Below are positions 18,790 to 55,313 of a stretch of 64,000 nucleotides of DNA, in pieces. Position 1 is the first letter of the stretch. Every line of letters begins with the position of its first letter. The notes beneath the pieces were generated by a model that saw only the letters and a program-made list of their open reading frames with translations, searched no databases and was not told the origin of the DNA. The stretch is from a virus: the IMG/VR virus record IMGVR_UViG_3300029787_000010, positions 40,981 through 104,980 of that record; one strand, given 5' to 3'. Both the position numbers and the translations under genes were made by a program.

Positions 18790-20084
18790 CAATTCACCCC
18801 TATTACATGGTCCGCACTGACTACTTGTAAATCAAACCTGTAGTAGTTTTCCGCACCTTCTTTGCTCATGTGGAATGATTCGGGTATCACCGAAATGCCA
18901 CCGCTATTGAGGGTCGCACCTCGCGCCGTAACCTTAGCCCACGCATCTCCAATGACATCGCCAATACCATCTATAGAAAAGCCAAACACATCTTCAATCA
19001 CACTGGATTCGGGCTCACCTGTTTCTTCTTGGCCACTGCTGTCAAAAGCGCCGATGTCCATCGGCAGCGTACTCGGGCGAGTGTTGCGAAGCGAGCCCTT
19101 CTGCAAAGGAGACACTTTGCCCGCAGTGAGAAAAAAATTGCGTACAACAGGCGTAATGTCGTTTGAAGTGATGAGTGAGTTGTAGGGTATTTGGATGCCT
19201 CGTAAAAGGTCCTTGTCCTTTGTGCTATTCGCCAGCAAACCAAGCAAATTTTGGGCCTTATCACCTGCGCTCAAAACCTTACCTCCCAAGCCGTCCGAAC
19301 TGGTTTTTTGAACTGCGATTGGGACCGGCCGACCTAATCCTGTATTCATAGCGAAAAACGGATTGTATCGCACAGCGTCGTTGACAAAGGTGTCCACCAA
19401 TGTTAGCGTAGTACCCGAAACGGAGTCATTGAAAGCATCAGTCACTTGCTTTCCACTCACGCCGTCCACGCTACTTGTTTTGGTAATTTCAGTGGTCAAT
19501 TGAAGGGCATCCTGTACGATAAGTGCTAATGTGCTGGCGGGGTTTGAGTTGGCTGAACTGTACATCACACCGCCAACCGGGACATCAATTTGCACTTTGC
19601 CTGTTTTTTCAGCCAAATTAAACGATGCGTTGACAGATGGTGTAGCGGAGCCGCCTGCACGGTTTGAAACAGAACTGTTGAATTGTAGGACTATGTAGTT
19701 GCCCGACAGAAGCGAAGCACCACCATTTGGTGAGTTGTATCGCCAGTAGGCTGGCTGCAAGCCGATGAGCGAAGATTGTAGGTTGGTCTGTGTCGCAGTG
19801 TTTTGTACATTAACGACAGGTGTAGTTGTCGGCAATATGTTGGCGAAGTTCATGACGAGGGACGAAGGTGCAGAAGTAGTAAGGGCGCTCATAGGGTCGT
19901 CTTGAATGATGCCTTGTACACTGATGACGATTTGGGGTATGTTGGTATCAATGGCTGCACGATAGGAACTGATAGGTACAGGGAATGCAGCCACTGTCCG
20001 CTCGGCCACGATGTTGATGTCGGTGGCGTCCACGAAGACCTCATGTCGGTCTTTCTCGCCAAAAATCAGTCGCAGCGGAATCAT
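18789..20084 (-). CDS. Tail protein, paralogue of the next upstream gene, 431 aa
   Basis: The ATG at 20084 has GAGGTG upstream. The protein shares an ordered series of blocks with the 551-residue gene just upstream: an N-terminal beta region ending in a GIIQDD-type strand (GTFVDD in the partner), then SAGDKAQNLLGLLANS, GIQIPYNS and RNFFLTAGK, each nearly identical in the partner. The two genes are therefore a tandem duplication that has diverged. The location between chaperone/tape-measure position and the giant tip protein suggests distal-tail or tail-tip components that bridge tube and fibre. No enzymatic motif is visible, and the family has no name I recognise. Confidence 0.7.
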   Translation of the reverse strand: MIPLRLIFGEKDRHEVFVDATDINIVAERTVAAFPVPISSYRAAIDTNIPQIVISVQGIIQDDPMSALTTSAPSSLVMNFANILPTTTPVVNVQNTATQTNLQSSLIGLQPAYWRYNSPNGGASLLSGNYIVLQFNSSVSNRAGGSATPSVNASFNLAEKTGKVQIDVPVGGVMYSSANSNPASTLALIVQDALQLTTEITKTSSVDGVSGKQVTDAFNDSVSGTTLTLVDTFVNDAVRYNPFFAMNTGLGRPVPIAVQKTSSDGLGGKVLSAGDKAQNLLGLLANSTKDKDLLRGIQIPYNSLITSNDITPVVRNFFLTAGKVSPLQKGSLRNTRPSTLPMDIGAFDSSGQEETGEPESSVIEDVFGFSIDGIGDVIGDAWAKVTARGATLNSGGISVIPESFHMSKEGAENYYRFDLQVVSADHVIGVN

Positions 20085-31279: not shown

Positions 31280-32464
31280 TCATGCCAAGTCTCGGATTGA
31301 ACCGTGACCGCCAAAGAAAGTCGTCCATAGTTCTCCCATGGTTCGGTACAGTCCCTCTTGACCGAGGCGGTTGATGGCGAATGGGTCACCGGTTTCAATT
31401 CCGGATTCGTAGTATTGCGTTGGCTTAGCCACACTAAAGTGCAGGTAGTCCGTATCAAGGAAGTACATTCGGCTGATACCGTCTGCGGCGACATCCTTGG
31501 AAGGAATGATTGGAACGCCGTTGTAGGTAGCCACGATGAAACCGGCTTCAATACCGGGAACACCCTTCACACCGTTGAAGGTAGGGGTGACTCGCTTCTC
31601 TTCCATGAATCGCTGTTGTGCTTGGAGGAGTTGTTGGATTCGCATCAAAGTGTCGTAGCCCGTAAGGATAACCTTGGGGTTGCCACCACGGACCCAAATC
31701 TTCTGAAAGATGTCGTCAAGGTGGTCAAGACTGAGAACACGCTCCGTCAAACCAGCGTCGGCTGCGATGCTGACTTCTGCGTTGGACCAAGTGTTAGCAC
31801 TGCGGTCAATGCTGTAGATGTCAAGGTCAGCAGCGTCGCTTACATGCGCAGTGTGAGTGGTGGAAGAGCCACCGCTCACGGTTGCGGCGTATGCAGTACC
31901 GGTGCTGTCCATGGTGCTTGAAGCGGTGACACGGTCCAAGGACTCGTAGTCGTTGCCGGCAGGGGTGTCAACATCTTGCGTGAGCATTTTGTTGATTTCT
32001 TCTGCGTGGTGCTTACCCATTTCTTCCTTGAGGATGGAACGGATGTCGCCAAGTCCATCGTCCTTGTCGTTAAGGAAAATGGCCATTTCGCTCATGTCAA
32101 AGGTGTGAGCGATGGTCTTTGGCTTTGCAGCGATGTTTTGGAAGGTTGGCTTCGTCGTTTCGGGAAGCGTTCCGTTCTCAGCAATTCCGCCGCCCTTGGT
32201 AGAGTCGGGGCGAGCGGTGACAACACGCCATCCGCTTCGGTCCCAAGGCTTCTTTGGAAGAATGGAGAAGGCGTTGAACTCTTGGTTCAATTGCGACCAA
32301 ACTTTGCGTCCGTAGATGGCTTGGTAGGTACCAGCCGTGGTGGACAACATTGGTGCGTCAGCCTTCAAAAGTTCACTACCGGAGTAGGCGTAGCCCATGT
32401 TGGAGCCAGCGCCGTAGTAGTAGCGTTCCATGTCGTTAATTGTGCGTAGGTAATTTCTTGCCAT
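31280..32464 (-). CDS. Major capsid protein, HK97-fold type, 394 aa
   Basis: The protein follows the protease/scaffold gene, as in HK97-type viruses, and has the right length (394 residues). It contains a helical N-terminal region (MARNYLRTINDMERYYYGA), an elongated arm, IAHTFDMSEMAIFLND, a long helix (DIRSILKEEMGKHHAEEINK) matching the spine helix, and the domain with VLSLDHLDDIFQKIWVRGG and PKVILTGYDTLMRIQQLLQA. Near the C terminus are GVPIIPSKDV and YFLDTDYLHFSV, typical of capsid proteins of this fold. A Ser/Thr-rich loop (residues about 175-220) may be a surface insertion. An optimal ribosome site precedes the ATG. This is the best supported structural call in the window. Confidence 0.9.
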   Translation of the reverse strand: MARNYLRTINDMERYYYGAGSNMGYAYSGSELLKADAPMLSTTAGTYQAIYGRKVWSQLNQEFNAFSILPKKPWDRSGWRVVTARPDSTKGGGIAENGTLPETTKPTFQNIAAKPKTIAHTFDMSEMAIFLNDKDDGLGDIRSILKEEMGKHHAEEINKMLTQDVDTPAGNDYESLDRVTASSTMDSTGTAYAATVSGGSSTTHTAHVSDAADLDIYSIDRSANTWSNAEVSIAADAGLTERVLSLDHLDDIFQKIWVRGGNPKVILTGYDTLMRIQQLLQAQQRFMEEKRVTPTFNGVKGVPGIEAGFIVATYNGVPIIPSKDVAADGISRMYFLDTDYLHFSVAKPTQYYESGIETGDPFAINRLGQEGLYRTMGELWTTFFGGHGSIRDLA

Positions 32465-39604: not shown

Positions 39605-39617
39605 ACCATCACCGCCT

Positions 39618-40040
39618 TCAAAGGCGGCTTTGGAGTTTCTGCACCGCTTTGCGAAGTTCGCTCAAAGCAAACTTATGCTCATCAGCACCGACAAGACTCT
39701 TTTGCACTTTTTGCGAACCGCCGTCAAGGAAGTGAGCATCCAAGGTGGAGAGAGCCGTAGGGTAGTGAGGGTTCTTGTCAAGGACATTTGATTTCTCGGA
39801 GGTAGCCCCTTTGTTGGCAATGTCTTCTACACTGATGGTGCGTTGGTTGGTGCTGTAGTATTGGTTCTGCACACCGGTTTCACCGCCGACCTGTACATGA
39901 AACTGAACATCACCGAGGTCAGTGCCTTCTTTTTGAGTGAATCCAACGCCCTGCTCCTTGAGCAAACGCTGTTCCAACTCAATGGCTTCTTTCAACAGTT
40001 GGTCAAACTCGGGGTCCCGTGGTTCAAATCGTGGCTTCAT
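39618..40040 (-). CDS. Small head-region protein, 140 aa
   Basis: ATG at 40040 lies in the recurrent junction TGATACCATG, overlapping translation with the upstream gene's stop. The N terminus is helical and charged (FDQLLKEAIELEQRLLKEQG), the middle is Gly/Gln/Thr-rich (VQVGGETGVQNQYYSTN), and the C terminus is a helix (EHKFALSELRKAVQKLQSR). It is one of three small genes between portal and the 1895-residue protein. It may be a minor head or assembly factor. No family is recognised. Confidence 0.7.
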   Translation of the reverse strand: MKPRFEPRDPEFDQLLKEAIELEQRLLKEQGVGFTQKEGTDLGDVQFHVQVGGETGVQNQYYSTNQRTISVEDIANKGATSEKSNVLDKNPHYPTALSTLDAHFLDGGSQKVQKSLVGADEHKFALSELRKAVQKLQSRL

Positions 40041-40807: not shown

Positions 40808-42538
40808 TCAAAAACCGCCTGTATTCCGGCGTGCTTGCTCTACTGGTCCGGCTGGTGGACCACGCTGTTGAACGCTGCCAATCGGTGAGCCGGAGCCGGC
40901 TGTTTGGAATCGCTGAGGGCTGGCAGGACCACGGTTTCGCAAACCTCGGCCTTCGCCGCCGGGGTTCATGGCAGCCATACCCGCATTCGCCTGTCCTGCT
41001 AACGCCCCTGCCAGTTGCGGAGGAATGTTGCGAGACGGTAGTCCTCCGGGTTGCGTCATTGGCTGAGGCCCACCGGGCATACCGGGCATACCGGGTTGAC
41101 CGGGTTGACCGGGTGGCATCTCCTGCTTCTTGTAGACGAAGCGAATGTCTCTACCGCCTTCTTCAACAAGTTCTGCTTGGTAGCCAAGTTGAGCCATGCG
41201 TTGAGCAATGTTGACTTCCATTTCATCTCGTCGTAGACGAGTGACTTCGTCCTCTTCTTCGTTGGGGTACAGCGTGAGTTTCCAATCGTGCACATCCATT
41301 TCTTGCATCAAGCGAGGGAACAGGTTCTCAGTGTAGACTTTGTGCCCTGCTTCTACAGCACGATTGGTCACGAGGATTTGCAGACCTTCGTTGTTGAGGC
41401 CACCGGACTTACCTGTGTCCATCATGAAGACATTGGACACACCATAAAACGCAGCAATACGGGTTCGCATTTCATCACGCACCGAGATGTATTGCATTTC
41501 TTCAAGCGTGTCCATGAACTTGACCCAGTTGACTCCGCCACGGCCATTTTGACTTTCAACAGCAATTTTAGGGATGTAATGAGGGTCGCGCTCCATTTTT
41601 TCATCCACGCCTTTCCAAAAAGACTTCATGGATTCTACATTGTCTGTCGTAATTGAAATCAGCCCACGAGGCACACGGCGTTTTGAATAAGCCGTGTACA
41701 TGTAATTATCCATGGCCGTGAGTGTCATGGCCTGTCGCCAAATGGTGGCTACAGGAGAGCGACCATAGAGTTTGGACGGATGGTACTTGCTAACATGGAT
41801 GACTTCGCCTTCAATGTAATACTGTGATTTACCCGGACCACCTGTGTTGACATGGTGCACATCCTCCAACTCGTGTCCACAGATTTCACAATTGTTTTCT
41901 TTCTGCGTGTAGCCACGAACTTGGTCACGATGGATTGGGCAGACTTTGTAGCGACCACCACGCACGCCACGCTTATCAGCAACAATGCGCATAAAAATGG
42001 GGTCGCCTCGCAAAATCTCCTTGACACGGTAGAATTGAATTTCGTTGGACTCCGGGTCCACATAATACTCCTTGACCAAAACAAGGAAAGCATCGTCAAC
42101 AATGTTCAAATCAAACTCAATTTCTCGTAAAACATCAATAAAGCGTTGCTCCATGCTGTTGCGCTGTTCAATCAGCCACTTGGGGTAGACGAGATTGTCG
42201 GGGTCGGGCTTCTCTAATTCAGTAGAGTCGCACTGCTTACACACATCTACATCGTGCTGATACTCCTTGTCACAGACCATGCACTTTCGGTGATACGCTT
42301 TTTCCCAATAGTAGCCCCGTCGGAAAATTTCCTGCTGGAGTGTGGTGATAACGGTTCTTAAAATGACATTTTCATGTGCAACAGAGTACAGAGCAGGGAT
42401 GGTAATACCCTGCATGATAACGGGTTCTTGAATACCCGTCGTCCACAAGGGCATTTGTGGCTCGGGAGTGCGTCGGCGACGGAAGCGGTCAGCCAACCCG
42501 CTAAGGGCTCTTGAAACTCTACCTTTTTCTTCTGCCAT
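40808..42538 (-). CDS. Portal protein with two inserted zinc clusters, 576 aa
   Basis: The ATG at 42538 overlaps the upstream stop (TAATG) and follows GAGGTG. Portal features include a basic N terminus, helix-rich wing and stem regions, and blocks such as HENVILRTVITTLQQEIFRRG, KYHPSKLYGRSPVATIWRQA and GGLNNEGLQILVTNRAVEAG typical of portal families. Two Cys clusters sit in the wing: C86, C89, C100, C103, and C200, H203, C217, C220, probably zinc ribbons. The C terminus is a collagen-like Pro/Gly tail (GQPGQPGMPGMPGG) and a disordered Gly/Arg-rich end. Portals form the dodecameric gate for DNA packaging. Zinc clusters inside a portal are unusual. Confidence 0.85.
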   Translation of the reverse strand: MAEEKGRVSRALSGLADRFRRRRTPEPQMPLWTTGIQEPVIMQGITIPALYSVAHENVILRTVITTLQQEIFRRGYYWEKAYHRKCMVCDKEYQHDVDVCKQCDSTELEKPDPDNLVYPKWLIEQRNSMEQRFIDVLREIEFDLNIVDDAFLVLVKEYYVDPESNEIQFYRVKEILRGDPIFMRIVADKRGVRGGRYKVCPIHRDQVRGYTQKENNCEICGHELEDVHHVNTGGPGKSQYYIEGEVIHVSKYHPSKLYGRSPVATIWRQAMTLTAMDNYMYTAYSKRRVPRGLISITTDNVESMKSFWKGVDEKMERDPHYIPKIAVESQNGRGGVNWVKFMDTLEEMQYISVRDEMRTRIAAFYGVSNVFMMDTGKSGGLNNEGLQILVTNRAVEAGHKVYTENLFPRLMQEMDVHDWKLTLYPNEEEDEVTRLRRDEMEVNIAQRMAQLGYQAELVEEGGRDIRFVYKKQEMPPGQPGQPGMPGMPGGPQPMTQPGGLPSRNIPPQLAGALAGQANAGMAAMNPGGEGRGLRNRGPASPQRFQTAGSGSPIGSVQQRGPPAGPVEQARRNTGGF

Positions 42539-43857
42539 TACAACACCTCTTTCCAACCCATTACCGTGTCTTTGTCAACTGTCCATTCTCCCATTTTCTT
42601 TGCCAGTGCATCGGGGTCGTCTTTCCAGTTTTCATGCTGAACAAACAACCGGAGTTGTTCTTTGAGAAGGGGGTCCTGTTCTTGTAGGCATCGGAGAGCG
42701 GCCTTAGCCTGCATGGACTTAAGTTGCAGGTGAGGAAGGATGCCTTCAAGCACTTTTTTGACATCGGATTTGGATTGGAAATTAACACGGTGAACGCTAC
42801 GGTTGCTGGTTTTGCCTACACGCTCGTTAAGGCTGAGCATACCACAGCCCAGTGTTTTCTGCAAGCGTTCACAATGAATTTTACCACGGTCGCCAGTAGC
42901 GATGGCAGAAGCACGAACTTCTCCACGCTTGGTGATGTAGATTGAGCCGTCTGCGTCAAAGAAACCAGCGGCATAGGCCCATGGGTCTTTGACGATAATG
43001 CCGTGCGAAGTCAACACAGCATACTCGCCACGCCTTGGGGCCTTGATGATGTCAATCTCCTCACCGTACATTTTGAGAAGTTGTGAAACATTGGTGGCTC
43101 CTACACGACCATCTCCTTTGACGATGATGTTGGAAGCGATGGCCCGTGCACTCATATGCCCTTTGTCCACCAGTTCTTGCTTTGCCATTTGCAGAACATT
43201 TTGCTGCTGCTTGGTCAAACTATCAATTTGATGTAGACCGCTGCGCCACATTTTCTTAGCGTCTTGTCGCTGTTGCATAGCATTGACCCAAGCATTTCGC
43301 TCTTCGTCGCCCCACACATCCTCAAACTCGTCCAGCATTTTGAGTGTTTCGTCAGCCACTTCCCACATGTTACAAGCCCGGCGCAGCGTACTTTCACGGG
43401 ACTTAGAAAACAAACGGAGTGATTTCAAGTTCCTATCGGTAAGTCCCAAGTTGCGTATGGTGCTGTGATGGTCCTTCGCCCAAGGGATGGACTCCAAAGT
43501 CTTCTGCACCTCTTCTGCTTTCATAGTGCGCACGCTTTCTATAGCCTTGTCAATCTCGTCACGCATGTCTTTCATGTGCCGACGAGCACGCTTGAAGTTC
43601 TTGACCACATCATCGGCATCCTTGCCAAAGTGACTGATGAACCAAGAGTCTCCGTTGACAGGAAACTCATGCATCTCCACAAAAATATCCGGCTCTTCTA
43701 CACGAGGGAGGGCTTCCTTAGCGATGATGACAGCCGTAGACGGGTCCTGTTTGACCAGTGGATGATGAGAAAGCGTAGAAGCGACCATGTTGCCCAGTTC
43801 GTCCCCCAAGTCAACGAAGTTTTCGCCCACGCCGACCTTTAATGATGACCACATCAT
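42538..43857 (-). CDS. LAGLIDADG-domain protein in the packaging cluster, 439 aa
   Basis: ATG at 43857 follows GGAGGGGG. Residues 1-230 are helical and charged (DDVVKNFKRARRHMKDMRDE, AEEVQKTLESIPWAKDHH) and match no homing-endonuclease part. Residues about 234-266 look like a winged HTH (GHMSARAIASNII, TNVSQLLKMYG). Residues 295-305 hold AAGFFDADGSI, a single LAGLIDADG motif with the expected acidic Asp, followed by an alpha-beta region to about 395. One motif means it would act as a homodimer. It lies between intact terminase and portal genes, has no intein splice signature, and no intron is apparent. It may cut DNA during packaging or be a free-standing homing endonuclease. Confidence 0.7.
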   Translation of the reverse strand: MMWSSLKVGVGENFVDLGDELGNMVASTLSHHPLVKQDPSTAVIIAKEALPRVEEPDIFVEMHEFPVNGDSWFISHFGKDADDVVKNFKRARRHMKDMRDEIDKAIESVRTMKAEEVQKTLESIPWAKDHHSTIRNLGLTDRNLKSLRLFSKSRESTLRRACNMWEVADETLKMLDEFEDVWGDEERNAWVNAMQQRQDAKKMWRSGLHQIDSLTKQQQNVLQMAKQELVDKGHMSARAIASNIIVKGDGRVGATNVSQLLKMYGEEIDIIKAPRRGEYAVLTSHGIIVKDPWAYAAGFFDADGSIYITKRGEVRASAIATGDRGKIHCERLQKTLGCGMLSLNERVGKTSNRSVHRVNFQSKSDVKKVLEGILPHLQLKSMQAKAALRCLQEQDPLLKEQLRLFVQHENWKDDPDALAKKMGEWTVDKDTVMGWKEVL

Positions 43858-43900: not shown

Positions 43901-43912
43901 TTAGGTCCCTAA
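43901..43912. repeat. Palindrome TTAGGTCCCTAA at the terminase stop
   Basis: TTAGG-TC-CCTAA is an inverted repeat overlapping the TAG stop of the terminase gene, 44 bases before the LAGLIDADG start. A version differing by one base, TTAGGGCCCTAA, lies at 63115-63126 beside the late promoter. It could be an operator. Confidence 0.4.
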
Positions 43913-45414
43913 GCGACAAAAATATCATCTCCTCCAAACCGAGGGTTGGGCATACTTGGTGCCCCCAAGAACCATTTATCAAAGCCGGGCAAGTCATCAT
44001 CATCGTCCAGCAAAATAACGCTACCCTTGAACTCCTTGGTGCCCCAGTTGGCAAGAGCCACAGCCATGGCCAAGTCGTCGTGGCTACCTACAGACTCAAG
44101 GCGACCGTTCCGCTTCATACCAAAGCGACTGAGTTGAGTTTCCAAAATCCTCGTGTACTCTTTGCTCTTCTCATCACCCCAAGGCGTTTTGAGTTGCCCC
44201 TGCTCAAGTGCCAAAAGCAAACTCATGAACATGGACTCCTTTCGCTGACGGGTGGTCATGAAGGTCTTGATAGGAATATCATCTCGCATGTCCCGCAGTT
44301 CAGCCTCAAACATGCGTTGGAAGTTGTTGCCTTCCAATTCAATGAGGTCCGGCTGGAACCGATTGTTGAGGATGAGCATGCGCTTCTTCTGCGCCATACC
44401 CCCAAGTCCCTTTTCGTTGACAACATGAATGATTTGTTTTGTACCGTCGCCCGGAACGATGCGAATCACCACCATGGCAGTATAGTCGGCGTTTTTATCC
44501 GAAGCAATGGCTGGGTCCCAGCCGATAAAGTGCTGTCCGAAGAGTCCGGTTTTTTCACCATTTTCATCATAGTCATGTTCGGCGTAGTCCATAATTTTGA
44601 GATTCGGGTCACGGGCACTCTCCAACAAACTCATCGGGAACATACTGGAAGTGTCGTGAATTGGTTCGCACAAGTATTCACGAGCGAACCGAATGGCAGG
44701 CATGGAGGACTCACGCATTTTGAGGGCGTCCAAGTCCCATCGCTCCGGCCACAATGCTTCGCCTTTGTCGTTGATGGCAGGATATGTCTCTACCATGAAA
44801 GTGTCTTTTTCTTCTAACTCGGCGTACAAGTCGTCATAAGAAAACGGAGTGCCGACCATCATCATACGCCCCGTGTGGTGCAACACAGGAAGAAGAACGG
44901 TGTAAAACCAGTCAGCAGCACGCTGCAACTCACCCGTGGTCGTTCCCCACAGAATGTCATCGCACACCACAACATCGGGGTGGAACCCACGGGTAGCACC
45001 ACCGACCGACTTCGCCATGATACGGCTGCCGTTGGTGAACTCAAAGTAGGATTTAGCCCACGGCTTACCAGTAGGTTTGAGATGCTTAAGCAAATCCGTG
45101 CCCTCAATGTTACTGCGAATAAAGCGCATGTGCTCAAGCGTCTGCTCAAGACTGTGACTGAACACCATGATGTGTGTACCGGGCTGGAAGGCCCCAATCC
45201 ACAAAGCGTAAGACATGAAGAACACGGACTTACCGTGGTCACGAGACGCCTTCACGCAGTAGTATTTGTTTTCATTCAGCCCTTTCTCCCAGCAGCCGTG
45301 GTGGTAGGAGTAGTCAAACCCCAAAATCTCGTGAAAAAAATACTTGAAACTCTTCTTGCACATCTCAGTGTCCACTTGATGAACGAGGTCTTTGATGGCA
45401 GGATTGTCGCTCAA
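43909..45414 (-). CDS. terL: Terminase large subunit, 501 aa
   Basis: The ATG at 45414 overlaps the stop of the preceding gene (ATGA). The ATPase domain has a Walker A-like loop at about residues 55-64 (KASRDHGKSV), Walker B DVVVCDD at 147-153, and a coupling stretch VGTPFSYDD near 188. The nuclease domain has D300 (GWDPAIASDKNAD, the RNase H-like first metal ligand), a Glu near 358 (LIELEGNN) and D-D near 463 (SHDDLAMA). Length fits the family. It drives DNA into the prohead through portal and cuts the concatemer. Both domains are intact, and the neighbours (portal, HTH protein) are those expected of a packaging cluster. Confidence 0.9.
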   Translation of the reverse strand: MSDNPAIKDLVHQVDTEMCKKSFKYFFHEILGFDYSYHHGCWEKGLNENKYYCVKASRDHGKSVFFMSYALWIGAFQPGTHIMVFSHSLEQTLEHMRFIRSNIEGTDLLKHLKPTGKPWAKSYFEFTNGSRIMAKSVGGATRGFHPDVVVCDDILWGTTTGELQRAADWFYTVLLPVLHHTGRMMMVGTPFSYDDLYAELEEKDTFMVETYPAINDKGEALWPERWDLDALKMRESSMPAIRFAREYLCEPIHDTSSMFPMSLLESARDPNLKIMDYAEHDYDENGEKTGLFGQHFIGWDPAIASDKNADYTAMVVIRIVPGDGTKQIIHVVNEKGLGGMAQKKRMLILNNRFQPDLIELEGNNFQRMFEAELRDMRDDIPIKTFMTTRQRKESMFMSLLLALEQGQLKTPWGDEKSKEYTRILETQLSRFGMKRNGRLESVGSHDDLAMAVALANWGTKEFKGSVILLDDDDDLPGFDKWFLGAPSMPNPRFGGDDIFVA

Positions 45415-48622: not shown

Positions 48623-49674
48623 CAAGCCGTCCTCCCGCTACCCCTGCTCACAAAGTGGTGACCGGAGGCACCGGCAGAACGGAACTCATCAGCCTCTTTG
48701 TTGTCAGTGCCCCCTTGAGGCTGAGTGGTTTCACCATCACGGTGCCCAGCCTCACCTTCTTTGGAGGTACCCTTGCCGGACGGCGGTGCTTTCTTGGCTG
48801 ACTCCTTGCGAGCGATGGCTCGCTTCAAGTCTCGCAAAATGTTGCGCAATTGGCTGAGGTGAAGGTAGCCCGAAGCCGACTTAACGAGCATCTGCATCTC
48901 TTGAAGTTCGGACTTCATGGTCATGGGCTTGAACTTTGTACGGCGTTCGGGGTTGTGCCCTTGATAGGGCAAGGAAATGTTACCGCGATTGGCCTGCATG
49001 GCTCGGGTACCGAGACTTTGGCGGTATTTGTCGGGAAACAAACGCAGAGGCTGCTTAGTATCAAGTCCAAGGTGGGACATCTCAACGGCTTTATCAGCAT
49101 TAACCATGCCACCCTGTTCAGTACGAGGACTGAGTGTACGGGACTGTCGCTTGGCACGCATGGATGTTGCTTGCTTTTGACGAGAGCGGCCACCGGGGGG
49201 AGCCTTGAACTGCTGGGTGGAGAAGTCGCCGTCTCGCTTGAGCAGTTGGAAAGCGATGTCCATCGGCTCACCGGCCATGACAGTTTGCTGACCGTATGGA
49301 CTAAGTGCCTGTGCACCAAAACTGATGCTGGCTTCGGGAGAACCAGTGCCCGGCGAGCCAGTGAGGGCACTGAGTTCATTCTGTTGAGCCATAGGCGTTT
49401 CTTCCATCATGTCCTCTTCCGGCTCGTCCATCGGCATAGGAGTGGGCATACCCATGTCGGGTTCTTCCGATTCAATGTTGAACTTGAGATGGGGCAGTTC
49501 ACGCGTCTTAACACGCTCCTCCTTCTCCTTCATTTTTTTGTCCTTCATTTGGTCCTCATGTTCAGGTGAACCCTTACCGTGCCGGTAGTCTTCGCCGTCC
49601 GAATAAAGGTGGTCCGAATCGGACCGGGGGGAATACATGCGGGTGTCAGTACCGGTACCCATGCTACTGGTCAT
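48622..49674 (-). CDS. Protein with internal PMDxAF tag and basic C-terminal half, 350 aa
   Basis: ATG at 49674 overlaps the preceding stop (ATGA). Residues 1-130 are charged and disordered (Asp/Glu/Lys/Met). Residues 135-146 (GEPMDIAFQLLK) are an internal copy of the shared peptide. The part after it is rich in Arg, Lys and Gln (RSRQKQATSMRAKRQSRTL), then RTKFKPMTMKSELQEMQMLV and a helical region, ending with a disordered Gly/Ser tail. The basic region could contact packaged DNA. It is the most promoter-distal clear bearer of the tag, in contact with the small-terminase candidate and packaging genes. Confidence 0.7.
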   Translation of the reverse strand: MTSSMGTGTDTRMYSPRSDSDHLYSDGEDYRHGKGSPEHEDQMKDKKMKEKEERVKTRELPHLKFNIESEEPDMGMPTPMPMDEPEEDMMEETPMAQQNELSALTGSPGTGSPEASISFGAQALSPYGQQTVMAGEPMDIAFQLLKRDGDFSTQQFKAPPGGRSRQKQATSMRAKRQSRTLSPRTEQGGMVNADKAVEMSHLGLDTKQPLRLFPDKYRQSLGTRAMQANRGNISLPYQGHNPERRTKFKPMTMKSELQEMQMLVKSASGYLHLSQLRNILRDLKRAIARKESAKKAPPSGKGTSKEGEAGHRDGETTQPQGGTDNKEADEFRSAGASGHHFVSRGSGRTA

Positions 49675-50381
49675 GCGCTACCCTCCTGTTCTAACAAGCC
49701 GCTGATGTCAATTTCGTCGCCTTCCTGTGTGAGCAAGGCTTCTTTGACGCGCTTCCAAGTATCGGGACTCTCCTTTGCCATTTCAACTTTGAGGATGTTG
49801 ATGGTGTTTGCCACCATTTTCTCCTCGGGCTCAACCCACGCCTTTTGAAATGTGGTTAAGTCTTTGATGGACTCACGAATCTCTTTGCTTAACCTCACCA
49901 TATCCGAAACAGCCCCATCATCGTGGATGCTGACCTCGTCCATGTAGCGAGACAATTTCTCATTGAGGCGTTCAGTGTTGTGTCGCAAGATGTCAGCCTC
50001 TTGACCTACTTTGATGGACACGATGGCTGATGCACTTTGCTTGACGATGGGCTGGAAATGTTCTTTCATGTGCTTGTAAACAGTAGCCTCACTGCAATTC
50101 AACTCTTGAGCAATCTCTTCGGTGGTCATACCTTCGTCAAAGTAAGCGACTTCGTACATACTTCGGTGGTCGTCCGTGCATATCACGCAGCGGTAGTTGG
50201 AACCTTCCAAGTTTTCACCAGCATGATTCCGCATGTGGCGCTCAGCCGTGTTGGCTCGCCACCCTTTGTCCCGGTCCATGGTGCGCACATCAGCGGTACC
50301 TTGAGCAAGATTCATCTCAAGTTCGTCACGGTCGGGGTCTTGGCAGAAAGGGCAAGAACGCTTGCTTTGCCTAACTCCCAT
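49671..50381 (-). CDS. Tandem zinc-HTH protein, small-terminase candidate, 236 aa
   Basis: Two copies of the same unit are visible: C10-x2-C13 ... H49-x3-H53, and C65-x2-C68 ... H104-x3-H108; the second contains a clear helix-turn-helix (MTTEEIAQELNCSEATVYKH, residues 85-104). Each unit has a zinc site holding an HTH. The C-terminal half is coiled coil (residues about 120-215). The combination of DNA-binding HTH with oligomerising coiled coil and the position upstream of the large terminase are typical of small terminase subunits, which recognise viral DNA for packaging. A transcription factor role for late genes is the alternative. No Shine-Dalgarno precedes ATG 50381, so it may be leaderless. 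Confidence 0.6.
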   Translation of the reverse strand: MGVRQSKRSCPFCQDPDRDELEMNLAQGTADVRTMDRDKGWRANTAERHMRNHAGENLEGSNYRCVICTDDHRSMYEVAYFDEGMTTEEIAQELNCSEATVYKHMKEHFQPIVKQSASAIVSIKVGQEADILRHNTERLNEKLSRYMDEVSIHDDGAVSDMVRLSKEIRESIKDLTTFQKAWVEPEEKMVANTINILKVEMAKESPDTWKRVKEALLTQEGDEIDISGLLEQEGSA

Positions 50382-50691: not shown

Positions 50692-50943
50692 CTATTGTTG
50701 TGAAATACGGGTGTAAATCCCCGTAGCGAGTAGAATCGCACCCATCATAGCGCCCATCATGTAAGCCATCATGTCCGATGAGAGTTTTCCCGAGCCGGTC
50801 AAGAGCACCAATGATAGCGTAACGATGATGGTCAGCACCTGTACCATCACCATGTCTACAATGACGCTCTTCTTTGGAGCAAAAATATCACGCGTTGACA
50901 TGGCAAAGCCATGGTAAATTCCGGGCATACCTCGGTCATTCAT
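50692..50943 (-). CDS. Small membrane protein, 83 aa
   Basis: Two hydrophobic segments, about residues 27-49 (SVIVDMVMVQVLTIIVTLSLV and on) and 57-77 (SDMMAYMMGAMMGAILLATG), make this a two-pass membrane protein with a short N-terminal tail. The stop is directly adjacent to the convergent plus-strand gene. It is the last gene of a set with a GTPase and two other membrane proteins. It could be holin-like by size and topology, but no lysin is next to it. No Cys or catalytic residues are seen. Confidence 0.7.
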   Translation of the reverse strand: MNDRGMPGIYHGFAMSTRDIFAPKKSVIVDMVMVQVLTIIVTLSLVLLTGSGKLSSDMMAYMMGAMMGAILLATGIYTRISQQ

Positions 50944-50944
50944 T

Positions 50945-51574
50945 TCATCGTCCTCCCATCATACTGCGGGCAAAGGAACCAACGCCTCCGCCCACCTTTT
51001 GCATCATACCTTCGTCAGCCAAGGCTGCTTGGAGCGCACCGCCCATCATTGATTGTTGGGCCATCGCAAGTATTTGCTGTTGCTGCATCTCCATTTGCTG
51101 GATATTTTGCTGACTGGCACTTTGCATTTGATTGAATTGATTGGTGACATTCTCCGCACTCATGGTTTGAAGGTTGGAAGGGAGGGAAGTTACATCCATT
51201 TTCATGGTCCCATCGTCTTCATTGATAACAAAAGTAGCGTTTTTCATCACTTCCAGCACTGAAAAACTGACAAGGTCGTTCAACATTTGAACGAGTGTCG
51301 CCATTTGGGCTGACGCTACGAACCTGTCCATGGGTGCGACGGAGCGCATAAGTGCCAGTTGAATCTCAGCCTCGCTTGGAGGGGTAATAGGCTGCTGCAT
51401 CATACCCGGATTCATACCCATACCCTGCATCATACTGCCTCCAAAAGCACTTTGACCAAAGTTTTGCATGGTGCTTGGGGGCTGTTGATTGAAGCCAAAG
51501 GGCTGTTGAGGGGAATTGGTAGGTGCACCGAGGTTCAAGGCGCTATTTTGTTGCTGATTGTTGCCAAATAACAT
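50945..51574 (-). CDS. Gln/Met-rich protein, 209 aa
   Basis: The ATG at 51574 has AGGTG six bases upstream; the GTG at 51592 is less likely. The first 65 residues are low complexity in Asn, Gln, Pro, Gly and Met (GNNQQQN and MMQGMGMNPGMMQQP). The middle is an ordered helical region (IQLALMRSVAPMDRFVASAQ, LVQMLNDLVSFSVLEVM) with a beta part, then a Gln-rich coiled coil (NIQQMEMQQQQILAMAQ) and a Gly end. It follows the Cys/His protein and precedes the small membrane protein. The function is unknown. It may form assemblies through its Gln-rich parts. Confidence 0.65.
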   Translation of the reverse strand: MLFGNNQQQNSALNLGAPTNSPQQPFGFNQQPPSTMQNFGQSAFGGSMMQGMGMNPGMMQQPITPPSEAEIQLALMRSVAPMDRFVASAQMATLVQMLNDLVSFSVLEVMKNATFVINEDDGTMKMDVTSLPSNLQTMSAENVTNQFNQMQSASQQNIQQMEMQQQQILAMAQQSMMGGALQAALADEGMMQKVGGGVGSFARSMMGGR

Positions 51575-51588
51575 GTTTTCACCTACTT

Positions 51589-52572
51589 TCACACTTGCCC
51601 TTGCACCGACTGAGGACCATTCTCCTCTTCAACCTGTTGGACAGGAGGGGCACTGGGCAGCGTAATACCCATTTTACCCACTGCATCAAGTATGCCGGGT
51701 TGAGTATTTTGGTCAATTTGACCCAATTCTTGCTGAAAAATCCTCAAATCAAAGACAACCATGGTCACATCGTTCATTTTTGACACCGGATTTTGGTAAT
51801 GAAGGATAGAAATACCGCTTGTTTGGCGTGAATCCTGCTCTAATTGCTTGAAAAAAGCCTCATATTTGGACAAAAATTGGGGTGTATTGTCCTTCTTTTT
51901 GACCATAGAGATGGGTACAGCGACCGTAGAAACGCCTTTTTTGACCATTTCTCGCATACCGGACTTGCTGGAAAGGCGAACTTTGTCGTTTTCATCCTCC
52001 CATTTGCACAACAAATGGTACAAATGGAGGTGTTCGGGGCAATAAGTACCCCGCATACTGCGCCCATCAGTCACATTTTCTTTGGCTACGAACGCTTGAA
52101 CCTCTCCAGACACTGGATTTTTCCAATAAAGGTCCCAAAGGCTCTCACCAGTGCCCTCATCGCATATTTTTGAGTACAAATTGTCGTATTTGATGAGTTC
52201 AACGCAGTCACAACCGTCCACAACGCATCGCTCATGCTGTTTATTGTACCTGTACTTCATTCCAAGCCACCGAAGTGGGTTAAAAATGCTCCTTTTGCTG
52301 GGTCGGAGCAACTTTCGGGCCTGCTTGATGTCTTTTTTGCGGGCTTTGCGTGAATCGGGGTGCCGACTGGGGTAAAAATTGACTTTTGGTACCTCAATGT
52401 TGCTTTTTACAGCCGCTTCACGCATTCCTTGCTGCGCACCCTGCATTTCAAGCAGTTGTTCGTGGGTAAGGTTGCCCTGTTGCGATAATGCGACCATTTG
52501 ATTGGCATCAAGTGCGTACAAATTGCCATTTCTTTGTTGTGGGACTTGCCCATACCGTCTTAATCCATTCAT
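51589..52572 (-). CDS. Cys/His-rich protein next to the GTPase, 327 aa
   Basis: ATG at 52572 follows GAGGTG. Residues 1-70 are Gln/Asn-rich, then a basic helix (KKDIKQARKLLRPSKR). A Cys/His cluster follows: C116, C121, C123, C137, C178, H181 and C189, spanning about 75 residues, likely binding one or two zinc ions. The later part (KKGVSTVAVPISMV, LSKYEAFFKQLEQDSRQ, VTMVVFDLRIFQQELG) is alpha/beta. It is directly downstream of the small GTPase, in the same run of genes, so it may be an effector or a binding partner. The family is not recognised. Confidence 0.65.
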   Translation of the reverse strand: MNGLRRYGQVPQQRNGNLYALDANQMVALSQQGNLTHEQLLEMQGAQQGMREAAVKSNIEVPKVNFYPSRHPDSRKARKKDIKQARKLLRPSKRSIFNPLRWLGMKYRYNKQHERCVVDGCDCVELIKYDNLYSKICDEGTGESLWDLYWKNPVSGEVQAFVAKENVTDGRSMRGTYCPEHLHLYHLLCKWEDENDKVRLSSKSGMREMVKKGVSTVAVPISMVKKKDNTPQFLSKYEAFFKQLEQDSRQTSGISILHYQNPVSKMNDVTMVVFDLRIFQQELGQIDQNTQPGILDAVGKMGITLPSAPPVQQVEEENGPQSVQGQV

Positions 52573-52583
52573 TTGTGTTCACC

Positions 52584-53300
52584 TCATGTTGAAAGCAAGT
52601 CTACCATCGTATTTTCTACATTCCAGCCTATTCGGGTGGCCATCATACCCCTTCGGGTAGGTATGCCGGCTTTTTGTAAACGAATAAGGTCTTCCCGAAA
52701 TGGGTCAAAAATACGATGTTCTCCAAGGCGCTGTTGTTGCCACAGAGTATTCGCTTGCTCATCCCACCACTTATCCGCCTTATTGGCGACTAAAAGAATG
52801 ACTTTCGGCGTGTATTTTTTGCCTTTTAGCCAACTTTTTAGATTTCTGTACCGATATTGGCGATAAATGAGAGCGTCTACCAAGAATTTGAAGCCACCAA
52901 CGGCATCAATGGTCGTGTCACCCCCCGCCGAAGCCCTGTCATCAAACATAAACACCACCGCTTCTACCCTTCTGTTGACCATATCATCAACCCAAAGGTT
53001 CCAAAAACGCTGTTCACCACCCAAATCAGCCGAATGAATGACACGGGTTTCACCCTTGTACTTGACTCGCTTACGACTGGGGCGAGGGAGAAGGAATTTT
53101 CCAAGCACCTTTGTGTGTGTAGTACGCTTGTCAAGTGCAATATCCTCCATTTCACCGGGTGTAGTCAAGTATTTGTCCAATGTCGTCTTACCAGCCATCG
53201 GTGGTCCGTAAATACCAACACGGCGGGGAATCCAATAGTGGTAAAGTTCTTTGGCAAAAATAACGCCACCTACCATTGCGGAGCCCGCTGCTGCACTCAT
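52584..53300 (-). CDS. Ras/Arf/SR-beta-like small GTPase with hydrophobic N-terminal segment, 238 aa
   Basis: GTPase motifs are in order: G1 GPPMAGKT at residues 32-39, candidate G2 Thr near 60, G3 DLGGEQ at 92-97, and G4 NKAD at 173-176 (VANKADKW). Between G3 and G4 is VEAVVFMFDDRAS, the usual strand. Residues 4-17 are weakly hydrophobic (AAGSAMVGGVIFAK), too short and weak to call a membrane anchor securely. This arrangement recalls SR-beta/Arf-type GTPases. The G3 Gln is present in the E-Q pair. Neighbours upstream are two membrane proteins with 4-base overlaps, so the GTPase probably works at a membrane. A viral structural cluster is an unexpected place for it. Confidence 0.8.
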   Translation of the reverse strand: MSAAAGSAMVGGVIFAKELYHYWIPRRVGIYGPPMAGKTTLDKYLTTPGEMEDIALDKRTTHTKVLGKFLLPRPSRKRVKYKGETRVIHSADLGGEQRFWNLWVDDMVNRRVEAVVFMFDDRASAGGDTTIDAVGGFKFLVDALIYRQYRYRNLKSWLKGKKYTPKVILLVANKADKWWDEQANTLWQQQRLGEHRIFDPFREDLIRLQKAGIPTRRGMMATRIGWNVENTMVDLLST

Positions 53301-53542
53301 TCAAACCAGCCCATGACTTCATTGGCCATCCAATTGACAGTGTGTTCCCAAAAACTCCAATTGTTGTGGTACTCAAACGCACTAATTGCCAACGCACTGA
53401 TGAATGAAAAAATAATCGTCTTAACCCATCCCCATGTGCGCTCATAGGCAGTGTCCAAAGTGTTGGCCATGTGAATAGCACGGAGCGTTGACTCCGTCGC
53501 ATCATCACTTGGCGTTTTGAACAGCCAGCCCACAGACCTCAC
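53297..53542 (-). CDS. Small membrane protein upstream of the GTPase, 81 aa
   Basis: The gene overlaps both neighbours by four bases (ATGA), indicating coupled translation. Residues about 39-55 (WVKTIIFSFISALAISAF) form one membrane segment; the N-terminal 38 residues are soluble and the C-terminal 20 (NWSFWEHTVNWMANEVMGWF) amphipathic and aromatic. A second, interfacial helix is likely there. Coupling to the GTPase gene suggests it is a membrane partner. No recognised family. Confidence 0.7.
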   Translation of the reverse strand: MRSVGWLFKTPSDDATESTLRAIHMANTLDTAYERTWGWVKTIIFSFISALAISAFEYHNNWSFWEHTVNWMANEVMGWFE

Positions 53543-54075
53543 TCCTTCTTCTTGAATTTACCATCAGCGCCACGGTTGGCGCTGGTGTCTTTGTCGTCAA
53601 ACGATACGCCCAAATCAAGAGTTTTATCACCTTTCTCGGGATTAAATGAACCTGTGTCAAGCGAGATGGGGTCGGAGAGGTTCATCGGTGGTATTTTGCC
53701 GGGATTGTTTTCCATCCAACGAAGTTCTTGCTCAAGTTGTGCCTCTTGCATTCGCAACTCCATGTCCTGTCGTCGCCGTTCAAAGGTCATTTCCATAGAG
53801 CGGTATCGGTTCCTGCGCTCTCGTTCCATTTCGGATTGCCGAGCCTTGTCATCCATGCCCTGTTGAAAGAACATTTTGAAGAAGTAGTAGGCAATGCCTT
53901 GAACAAAGAAAGCGCCCATCGCATAGGTGAAAGCGTTCAACATTGTACTTTCTAAATCAATCCAAATACCGGCGTTAAAAACACCTATGGCAAGTCCGAC
54001 ATTTAACGACTGCATGAGGATAAGCCCCATCAGCCGGATTTCACTTTGGTCAACGCTTTGGCTACCGCTTGTCAT
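53539..54075 (-). CDS. Membrane-anchored coiled-coil protein, 178 aa
   Basis: Residues about 15-38 and 45-70 are hydrophobic (LMGLILMQSLNVGLAIGVFN, LNAFTYAMGAFFVQGIAYYF), giving two membrane segments. Residues 75-130 form a strongly charged coiled coil (SEMERERRNRYRSMEMTFER, QDMELRMQEAQLEQELRW). The C-terminal part is short and charged, ending FKKKE. ATG at 54075 has AGAGG upstream. It is the first gene after a hairpin-containing gap and overlaps the next membrane gene by four bases. It may recruit the GTPase to a membrane. The family is not recognised. Confidence 0.7.
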   Translation of the reverse strand: MTSGSQSVDQSEIRLMGLILMQSLNVGLAIGVFNAGIWIDLESTMLNAFTYAMGAFFVQGIAYYFFKMFFQQGMDDKARQSEMERERRNRYRSMEMTFERRRQDMELRMQEAQLEQELRWMENNPGKIPPMNLSDPISLDTGSFNPEKGDKTLDLGVSFDDKDTSANRGADGKFKKKE

Positions 54076-54128
54076 GCAATCCTCTCATATAACCCCAAAA
54101 TGCACAAGGACATAAAACCTTCTAAGGT

Positions 54129-54160
54129 GGGCTGTACGCTGAGAGGTAGCGAAACAGCCC
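54129..54160 (-). terminator. Hairpin between two gene groups
   Basis: An imperfect inverted repeat, GGGCTGT...ACAGCCC with an inner AGCG/CGCT pair, forms a stem of about eleven pairs. It starts eight bases after the stop at 54168 and is followed on the minus strand by ACCTTAGAAGGTTTTATG. It could reduce transcription between the tag-bearing genes and the membrane/GTPase set, or act as an RNA processing site. Confidence 0.4.
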
Positions 54161-54167
54161 TTGAGTA

Positions 54168-55313
54168 TCAGTCTTCCTTGTCCTTTTTGTCGTCCCGCTT
54201 ACCGTTGGTAGACGGGCCGGGGCCGGCTTTGGAACCAATGACGATGACCATGCCGTGAGCAGGCTTTTTCTTTTTGTCATCATCGGCTTTCGTCATGCAA
54301 TGCATTTTGTTGACGCAGCCTTTCTTGCCACAGCGTTCGCACACACTGGCTTTCATAATGTTGCGTTCCATTACACCCAAGGTGGAGTTGATGAGATTGT
54401 TTCCAAGTGACATAGGCGTCCCCTTCTGTTTGATGGAAGGGGCCTGCATATTTGATGATGTCGGAGCCGACTGGAATTGCTTGCCTTGGAAAATATCCTT
54501 GTCAGCCATACCGCTCACACCGACATTTTGCACACCGCCAACGCCGCCGGACTGTTGGCCTGCGAGTTGAAAGCCCTGTTGACCGCCTTGTCCTGCACCA
54601 AAGCCGGCCACGGCTCCTGTTGTACCTGCCGCAAAGTTTGGAAATTCTGTATCTGTAGGCGAAAACGGACCCATTCCCAACGCCATCATAAGTTCGGGAG
54701 CATAAGCGGCGGCGGCACCAGCGCCAGTGGCTCCGGTCATGACAGCACCCCGTTTTGCACGCTGACCCAATGTCAACGGAGCGACTGGCGCTTGTGCTCT
54801 CGGAGCCAACCTTGCAGCCCGTGCTTGGGCAGCATTGAAGGCTTGACGCTGAGCACCAAGTTGAGAAGGAGAAACATAGGGGGCTACATCACCAAAGGCA
54901 TAACCAATTTCGGGATTATCTCGCTGTAACATGCCCCTTCGCTGCTGAGCAGACAACGCTTGATGGCGGGCCGCAGCCTCAGCCGCCTCCTTTTCTGCGG
55001 CTTCTCGTGCTGCTGCACGCTTTGCTGCACGGCGGCCGCCAAACCTCCGGGCCAAAAAGCCCCCACCCTTGACGGGGACAACGCCCTCGGCAAATCCCGA
55101 ACCAAATTCAGCAAGGTTGCTACCGAGTGAATCATTACCTTCTGCAACGGCTGTACCGAGGATTGGCTCGGACACTTCGTTTCGCTTAAGGTTTTGAGCG
55201 CCACGGAAGCCGCCGTAAAGTGCCATCGCCGCCGGAACGAGAAACGGAGCCACCTTCTCCACACGATGCCCTTCTTCAAGGACAGACCAAGCGGCGTCAG
55301 TTGGACTCAGCAT
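54168..55313 (-). CDS. Ala-rich protein with N-terminal SPTDAAW tag and C-terminal Cys cluster, 381 aa
   Basis: An ATG at 55313 starts the protein right at the tag (MLSPTDAAWSVLEEG), as in other tag genes; the ATG at 55331 would add six residues. After the tag come an Ala/Arg/Glu coiled coil (AAAREAAEKEAAEAAARHQA), a Gly/Ala-rich region with many Gln, and near the end a Cys group (CERCGKKGCVNKMHC). The last part is very basic (KADDDKKKKPAHG, KRDDKKDKED). It ends before the hairpin gap and the membrane-GTPase set. The tag suggests it belongs to the same cargo set. Confidence 0.7.
   Translation of the reverse strand: MLSPTDAAWSVLEEGHRVEKVAPFLVPAAMALYGGFRGAQNLKRNEVSEPILGTAVAEGNDSLGSNLAEFGSGFAEGVVPVKGGGFLARRFGGRRAAKRAAAREAAEKEAAEAAARHQALSAQQRRGMLQRDNPEIGYAFGDVAPYVSPSQLGAQRQAFNAAQARAARLAPRAQAPVAPLTLGQRAKRGAVMTGATGAGAAAAYAPELMMALGMGPFSPTDTEFPNFAAGTTGAVAGFGAGQGGQQGFQLAGQQSGGVGGVQNVGVSGMADKDIFQGKQFQSAPTSSNMQAPSIKQKGTPMSLGNNLINSTLGVMERNIMKASVCERCGKKGCVNKMHCMTKADDDKKKKPAHGMVIVIGSKAGPGPSTNGKRDDKKDKED

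Follow-up and report, generated by a model that had tools for sequence, protein, structure and literature searches.

A conserved gene block of an Arf-like small GTPase and membrane proteins among the late genes of marine tailed viruses that look like archaeal viruses

Main finding

Among the late genes of an abundant marine virus group that looks like archaeal viruses, we found an Arf-like small GTPase embedded in a block with two membrane proteins, a Cys/His protein and a Q-rich protein. We are highly confident of the molecular identity of the GTPase and of the module that surrounds it. A strictly kept Arf-like GTPase in late genes would represent a core gene of a kind new to prokaryotic viruses. 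The window described here, by which we mean the whole stretch of DNA that was analysed, comprises 64,000 nt from a source record of 104,980 bases. Coordinates refer to this window, and all features given with them lie on its minus strand.

Results

Motifs and fold of the GTPase

The core of the module is a 238 aa protein (52584..53300), assigned as an Arf-like small GTPase by its G1–G5 motifs, an Alphafold2 (AF2) model and Foldseek. The P-loop (G1) reads GPPMAGKT (residues 32–39; 53184..53207), with G32, G37, K38 and T39 invariant in 48/48 sequences. Thr60 (53121..53123) is invariant in both clades of the family described below (48/48) and, judged by its position, would be the switch-I threonine of G2. 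Switch II (G3) reads DLGGEQ (residues 92–97; 53010..53027), with D92 and G95 invariant, and G4 reads NKAD (residues 173–176; 52773..52784), in which N, K and D are again invariant (48/48). Alignments place the G5 region at MATRIGWNVE (residues 220–229; 52614..52643). The first-pass annotation had listed GPPMAGKT, DLGGEQ and NKAD, all of which are present, and had lacked Thr60 and G5. Ten residues (G32, G37, K38, T39, T60, D92, G95, N173, K174 and D176) are thus invariant in 48 non-redundant sequences from two clades that are only ~30% identical, which argues that the motifs are not due to chance. The P-loop, switch-I threonine, DxxG and NKAD are likewise invariant in an alignment of 39 proteins. 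Clade 2 has NKFD or NKYD at G4, and carries a canonical VSAKS/T at the place where clade 1 has MATxIGWNVE.

Residue 96, which corresponds to Gln61 of Ras, is Glu in 28, Gln in 16 and Asp in 4 of the 48 sequences. In Ras, a Glu at this position keeps or raises intrinsic hydrolysis. Since the position is mostly occupied by Glu, the viral protein is likely a hydrolysing switch.

In the AF2 model (pLDDT 75, pTM 0.76; P-loop poorly resolved), an N-terminal helix leads into strands and helices arranged in Ras-like order. Searching the PDB with Foldseek returned 1022 chains at E ≤ 0.001, and the 50 listed are all small GTPases (Rab, Rho, Ras and others; E down to 3e-7). In BFVD, the only matches at E < 0.001 were GTPases, Ras-family and others, that eukaryotic giant viruses encode. 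The TM-scores are modest, at about 0.35–0.6, as expected at this model quality. At the profile level, NCBIfam small_GTP is the most frequent match (29/39 members, under the cut-off in the member shown), accompanied by weak matches to Pfam Roc, Arf and SRPRB. Profile and fold searches therefore point to small GTPases and not to the packaging ATPases or kinases that had been named as the outcome that would speak against this assignment. With G1, the G2 threonine, G3, G4, G5 and a Ras-like fold, the protein has the features of the Ras superfamily.

The hydrophobic N-terminal helix (residues 3–23; 53232..53294) ends nine residues ahead of G1 and is, by AF2 and hydropathy, a probable membrane anchor. 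In the window protein, its Kyte-Doolittle value of 1.16 (residues 1–19) and its low 18-residue helical moment are borderline, and the corresponding stretch of clade-2 GTPases is amphipathic.

Place in the GTPase superfamily

Aligning the viral profile to cellular families by hhalign gave E-values of 6e-13 (5.6e-13) for Arf-like GTPases, 2e-5 (1.6e-5) for Ras and 4e-6 for ArvA, in a cellular sample restricted to Asgard archaea. Values for Asgard Arf-like GTPases ranged from 6e-13 to 3e-16, and the best such match by hmmsearch reached 1e-13 within the retrieved ORF set. Arf-like proteins were also the best cellular matches (E down to 8.5e-11) in 148 genomes of the phylum to which a MAG with an Asgard name belongs. 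Some Asgard Arf-like proteins have a switch II of the form DLGGQxxFWxLW, which nearly equals the viral one.

A tree of 77 sequences unites the viral proteins in a single group (100/98) that falls outside both Ras and ArvA. The phylogeny proposed in the first-pass annotation is thereby answered as far as monophyly is concerned; the deeper forks are unsure, with long branches and biased sampling. The nearest-neighbour place of the 'best' Asgard sequences is partly given by construction, as these were picked with the viral profile and sit on long branches. Of the weak Pfam matches, those to SRPRB and Arf rank among the most frequent, and both remain weak (SRPRB 18.1 versus a gathering score of 25 in the member shown). 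The tryptophan ahead of the G3 aspartate (WDxGGQ) is absent from the aligned members shown, which carry S, A or T there. Hence, the earlier label 'Arf/SR-beta type' holds in a broad sense, with the viral protein nearer to Asgard Arf-like GTPases than to Ras and with weak SRPRB and Arf matches, and fails as a family assignment: the sequences indicate a monophyletic family of its own.

Two other families were considered and rejected. MglA proteins lack a conserved Asp in G3 (PMC4316618), and the invariant Asp92 rules this family out. Orthology to ArvA was rejected by tree and hhalign, using OapB-linked Asgard genes.

Partner genes of the block

Upstream of the GTPase gene lie a two-pass membrane protein of 178 aa with a charged, coiled-coil-like C-terminal tail (53539..54075; 99/100 clade-1 loci) and a one-pass membrane protein of 81 aa with a GTG start (53297..53542; 102/103), both recognised by hydropathy. 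Downstream follow a Cys/His protein of 327 aa with zinc-finger-like residues (C116 and TYC(x2)H; 51589..52572; 103/103) and a Q/M-rich protein of 215 aa with a GTG start (50945..51592; 102/102). Clade 1 extends the block by a small two-pass membrane protein of 83 aa, again identified by hydropathy (50692..50943; 95/102). All clade-1 linkage counts refer to loci with room in the contig.

The genes are tightly packed. The two-pass and one-pass genes overlap by GTGA, so that the GTG start of the latter overlaps the stop of the former, and the one-pass and GTPase genes overlap by ATGA; 11 bases separate the GTPase gene from the Cys/His gene, whose stop is overlapped by the GTG start of the Q/M-rich gene. 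This arrangement suggests that the two membrane proteins are translationally coupled to the GTPase. Reading frames, gene order and 4-base overlaps agree with the first-pass annotation, for which a lack of conservation of the membrane genes would have been a counter-argument; they are conserved beside the GTPase in nearly all loci. The Q-rich partner, the third, small membrane protein and the TerS-like HTH protein next to it extend that earlier picture.

For the AF2 model of the Cys/His protein (pLDDT 76, pTM 0.54) no fold match was found, and the protein showed no similarity to ArvC/DUF2072 or Arf-GAP. Comparison of the two clades by hhalign supports homology of the GTPases (99.9%), Cys/His proteins (95.4%) and Q-rich proteins (90%). 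The one-pass and two-pass proteins of the two clades (TM1 and TM2) are alike in place, size and topology, with no homology detectable by profile-profile comparison, and the same approach found no clade-2 counterpart of the small two-pass protein.

A scan for sigma-70-like promoters yielded no more sites than expected, and this promoter type is the wrong one for an archaeal virus. Directly upstream of the block (54076–54170), a CCCTCTC element can pair with the GAGAGG(G) ribosome-binding region. The resulting hairpin is found in 17/99 clade-1 loci, close relatives only, compared with 0.2% of shuffled sequences.

Two clades share the block

The GTPase gene is present in at least 397 IMG/VR stretches, comprising at least 209 of clade 1 and 188 of clade 2 as counted with mutually exclusive search patterns. 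Clade 1 was represented by 68 relatives at 58–96% identity at first and by at least 209 later, clade 2 by 89 and 188 stretches in two scans; the split between the two clades is deep. Clade 2 was first met as two homologues (E 6e-33 and 6e-31) in a profile search of three MAGs with misbinned viral contigs, both of which sit in the identical five-gene order. Contigs of these viruses (L072-L074, L141, L142; G001-G003) have been placed in MAGs that bear the names Maricaulis, Asgard group archaeon and Cytophagaceae, which is probably misbinning and could mislead host prediction.

Both clades have the order two-pass, one-pass, GTPase, Cys/His, Q-rich, set within the gene clusters for capsid, terminase and tail. 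In clade 2, the positional equivalents of the one-pass (74/74 and 78/78 loci) and two-pass proteins (73/73 and 77/77), the Cys/His protein (74/74 and 77/77) and the Q-rich protein (71/71 and 72/72) are retained throughout, and the order is kept in 70/70 and 75/75 complete loci. The genomic place of the block differs. In clade 1, it lies upstream of TerS/TerL, the Q-rich gene being followed by the small two-pass protein, the TerS-like HTH protein and, further on, TerL and portal; in clade 2, it follows the MCP gene at a distance of 1.3–2.9 kb and immediately precedes the neck genes. Because the five genes stay together while their surroundings change, they very probably form one functional unit. 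Each of 16/16 genomes of 86–116 kb carries exactly one copy of the GTPase gene, marking it as a core gene of these viruses; as the 16 were reached via the GTPase gene, they speak to single copy and constant setting and not to frequency among all magroviruses.

Virus and genome setting

The left arm encodes PolB, an RFC-like clamp loader, an ERCC4 nuclease and a group II chaperonin. TerL, the prohead protease and the major capsid protein (MCP) are supported by Pfam, with the portal slightly under the cut-off. The magrovirus-type gene set (PolB, ERCC4, clamp loader, terminase, portal, protease and MCP in ~100 kb) is accordingly present, and magroviruses, the putative viruses of Marine Group II archaea, have been reported to carry the same set (PMC10160649). 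The MCP (31280..32464; Pfam SU10_MCP) matches exclusively archaeal virus records, namely Druskaviridae and viruses assigned to methanogens. The large terminase (43909..45414; Pfam Terminase_6N and 6C) is found in 79/79 clade-1 loci with room. A Zn-finger/HTH/coiled-coil protein (49671..50381; 101/101 clade-1 loci) is a probable small terminase, with matches to HTH families and two weak matches to small-terminase PHROGs. Marine Group II/Poseidoniales are the putative hosts. PolB was found in 16/16 relatives; the chaperonin is encoded by 7/8 clade-1 genomes and 0/8 clade-2 genomes. PolB occurs in two separate pieces in 7/8 clade-2 genomes (e.g. G198, G200-G205) and in one piece in 8/8 of clade 1; the two pieces may reflect a split gene or an insertion.

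Several further features of these genomes were observed. Downstream of the tail genes, a single ORF of 5,487 aa (2329–18792) presumably encodes a giant adhesin or tail-fibre protein. Between TerL and portal, an ORF at 42538–43857 combines a long helical N-terminal part with the stretch AGFFDADGSIYI, as is typical of LAGLIDADG homing endonucleases. Where the replication and tail regions meet, a minus-strand gene (L070:19128-19955, record 39128-39955) encodes a protein bearing EVGPRDGLQ, which we take to be a signature of HMG-CoA lyase-like enzymes. Twelve late proteins encoded between 48622 and 63072 have in common a short motif resembling P[M/I/L][D/E]xAWxxLLK, with 13 instances versus 0.02 in shuffles, located near the N-terminus, inside the protein or at the C-terminus. 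A related theme, MSWxxILK, begins tandem small proteins of clade 2 (L219). By analogy with the signal of T4 internal proteins, the AWxxLLK-like motif may serve in capsid targeting or as a prohead-protease signal.

Discussion

Proposed mechanism

We propose that a membrane-tethered, Arf-like switch and its four partners act on the host membrane late in infection, with egress or membrane remodelling as the most likely task. Taken as a whole, we put this statement at slightly below an even chance. Its parts differ in strength: that the module acts late and at the host membrane is likely, and egress as the main role is a tentative assignment that we would not yet favour outright. We infer that the GTPase is anchored to the inner face of the host membrane by its N-terminal helix together with the two membrane proteins, whose charged tails would point to the cytoplasm. 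Against this stands the helix, which is borderline as a transmembrane segment or an amphipathic helix. Loading with GTP would turn the switch on, and would recruit or order the membrane proteins. The Cys/His protein, placed like ArvC beside ArvA, could be a regulator (GAP-like) or an adaptor, and the Q-rich protein may connect the complex to proheads or capsids. With late expression, the switch would reshape or open the membrane for release by budding, vesiculation or controlled rupture, comparable to the vesicle budding that ArvA drives in haloarchaea. The most specific form of this proposal sees the block as an apparatus devoted to egress in marine archaeal tailed viruses, one that works without holin or endolysin and arose independently of ArvA; this is possible and rather doubtful.

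The main rival to egress is a membrane-based assembly platform, in which the GTPase would control when membrane-tethered proheads assemble, when packaging occurs or when heads and tails join, while the membrane proteins anchor the complexes and the Q-rich and Cys/His proteins bridge to the head. The gene neighbourhood speaks for it: the clade-1 block runs directly into TerS and TerL, and the position of the clade-2 block between MCP and neck genes fits assembly just as well as egress. However, tailed-virus heads generally form without a dedicated membrane GTPase, and HVTV-1 and HCTV-1, which have related capsid proteins, gave no match in the stretches searched; we regard this reading as unlikely. 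The same adjacency to capsid and neck genes could reflect an entry device, with virion-carried proteins opening or fusing at the membrane during genome entry, yet a switch that needs cytoplasmic GTP would be an odd virion component and the chances of this reading are slim. Somewhat better, and still improbable, is a role in host takeover or superinfection exclusion, in which the module would alter the host surface, polarity or vesicle traffic by competing dominantly with the Arf-like or ArvA GTPases of the host. Its Arf-like kinship, the attached membrane proteins and the need for a small GTPase in the vesiculation of other Euryarchaeota (PMC10927574) are in line with this role, but in both clades the block is tied to late structural genes, and it occurs in all 16 large genomes tested, which would be unusual for accessory takeover genes.

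Two readings concern the protein itself. As an SR-beta-like receptor subunit, it would guide the insertion of viral membrane proteins, an idea prompted by weak SRPRB matches in 20/20 clade-2 members and by the hydrophobic N-terminal segment ahead of the G domain. The SRPRB score of the member shown is nevertheless under the Pfam cut-off, the block contains no SR-alpha-like partner and we know of no SR-beta in archaea, making this reading very improbable. The idea that the protein is another P-loop NTPase, be it a kinase, packaging or RecA-like ATPase, has almost nothing left in its favour: single-sequence searches weakly match RecA P-loops and Sak4, but over only ~20 P-loop residues, and the G4 NKxD, G5 SAK, switch-I threonine and fold specify a small GTPase. 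Identity with RecA or Sak4 was rejected on this basis.

Novelty and meaning

To our knowledge, no machinery has been described in these viruses for leaving, or assembling at, a membrane that lacks peptidoglycan. The block provides defined genes for testing how archaeal tailed viruses exit or assemble at such a membrane. Membrane traffic in eukaryotes is characteristically marked by Ras-superfamily switches, and since the discovery of ArvA this also holds for some archaea. Among 50,697 annotated phage records, there was no convincing match to the GTPase of either clade; a match to a 'cell division protein' of Escherichia phage 683R6 (E 0.1) was rejected as chance. No PHROG could be assigned to the viral GTPase, and the literature searched does not mention such a viral module. 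The first-pass annotation knew of no counterpart, which stands for prokaryotic viruses in the collections searched and does not extend to cells, where ArvABC is a close working analogue (PMC10927574).

Comparison with known systems

The viruses themselves are reminiscent of the magroviruses (Magrovirales: Aoguangviridae, Apasviridae and Krittikaviridae), with which they share tailed-virus genomes of ~100 kb, PolB, ERCC4, clamp loader, portal, terminase and MCP (PMC10160649). The magrovirus literature searched does not mention a GTPase; the original descriptions lay outside this search, and a bare 'GTPase' annotation is possible there. HMM searches of HVTV-1 (1-50000 and 60000-102319), HCTV-1 (60000-103257) and parts of vir519 and vir335 found no match to the GTPase module. 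Its absence from the searched stretches of these MCP-related haloarchaeal viruses indicates that the module is not general to archaeal tailed viruses. Between its capsid and neck genes, HVTV-1 encodes a single small one-pass membrane protein (gene 124; L390:18406-18738), which might be a simple counterpart of the block.

The Ras/Rab-like GTPases of giant viruses found in BFVD are likewise virus-encoded and have a Ras fold. However, they are only 10–17% identical to the viral family described here and are, by annotation, accessory genes outside any fixed block with membrane proteins. The best cellular profile matches are the Asgard Arf-like GTPases, which have in common with the viral proteins a GKTT P-loop, a DxGG(Q/E) switch II and an N-terminal helix before the G domain. 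Unlike these, the viral proteins have an insertion-rich region between G3 and G4, lack the W before the G3 Asp, score weakly against Pfam and form their own monophyletic group.

The closest working parallel is the ArvABC (OapABC) system. In Haloferax volcanii, deletion of the small GTPase ArvA abolishes vesicle release and its overexpression raises it; the arvA operon also encodes ArvB and the Zn-ribbon protein ArvC, for which roles as GEF and GAP have been proposed, and loss of the operon's Zn-ribbon protein raises vesiculation (PMC10927574). Both systems have a small single-domain GTPase with Arf as its nearest Pfam family and an N-terminal helix, predicted in the viral protein, that contains hydrophobic residues. 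In both, a Cys/His-containing partner is encoded next door, one of the two ArvABC partners being a Zn-ribbon protein, and ArvA acts at the cell membrane. Nevertheless, the viral family falls outside the ArvA clade, and its hhalign alignment to ArvA covers the P-loop region only (E 4e-6, 36 columns). By Pfam, the viral block has neither an OapB (PF09846) nor an OapC domain, and it has two membrane proteins instead. By analogy, the viral block may thus work like ArvABC without being a member of that system.
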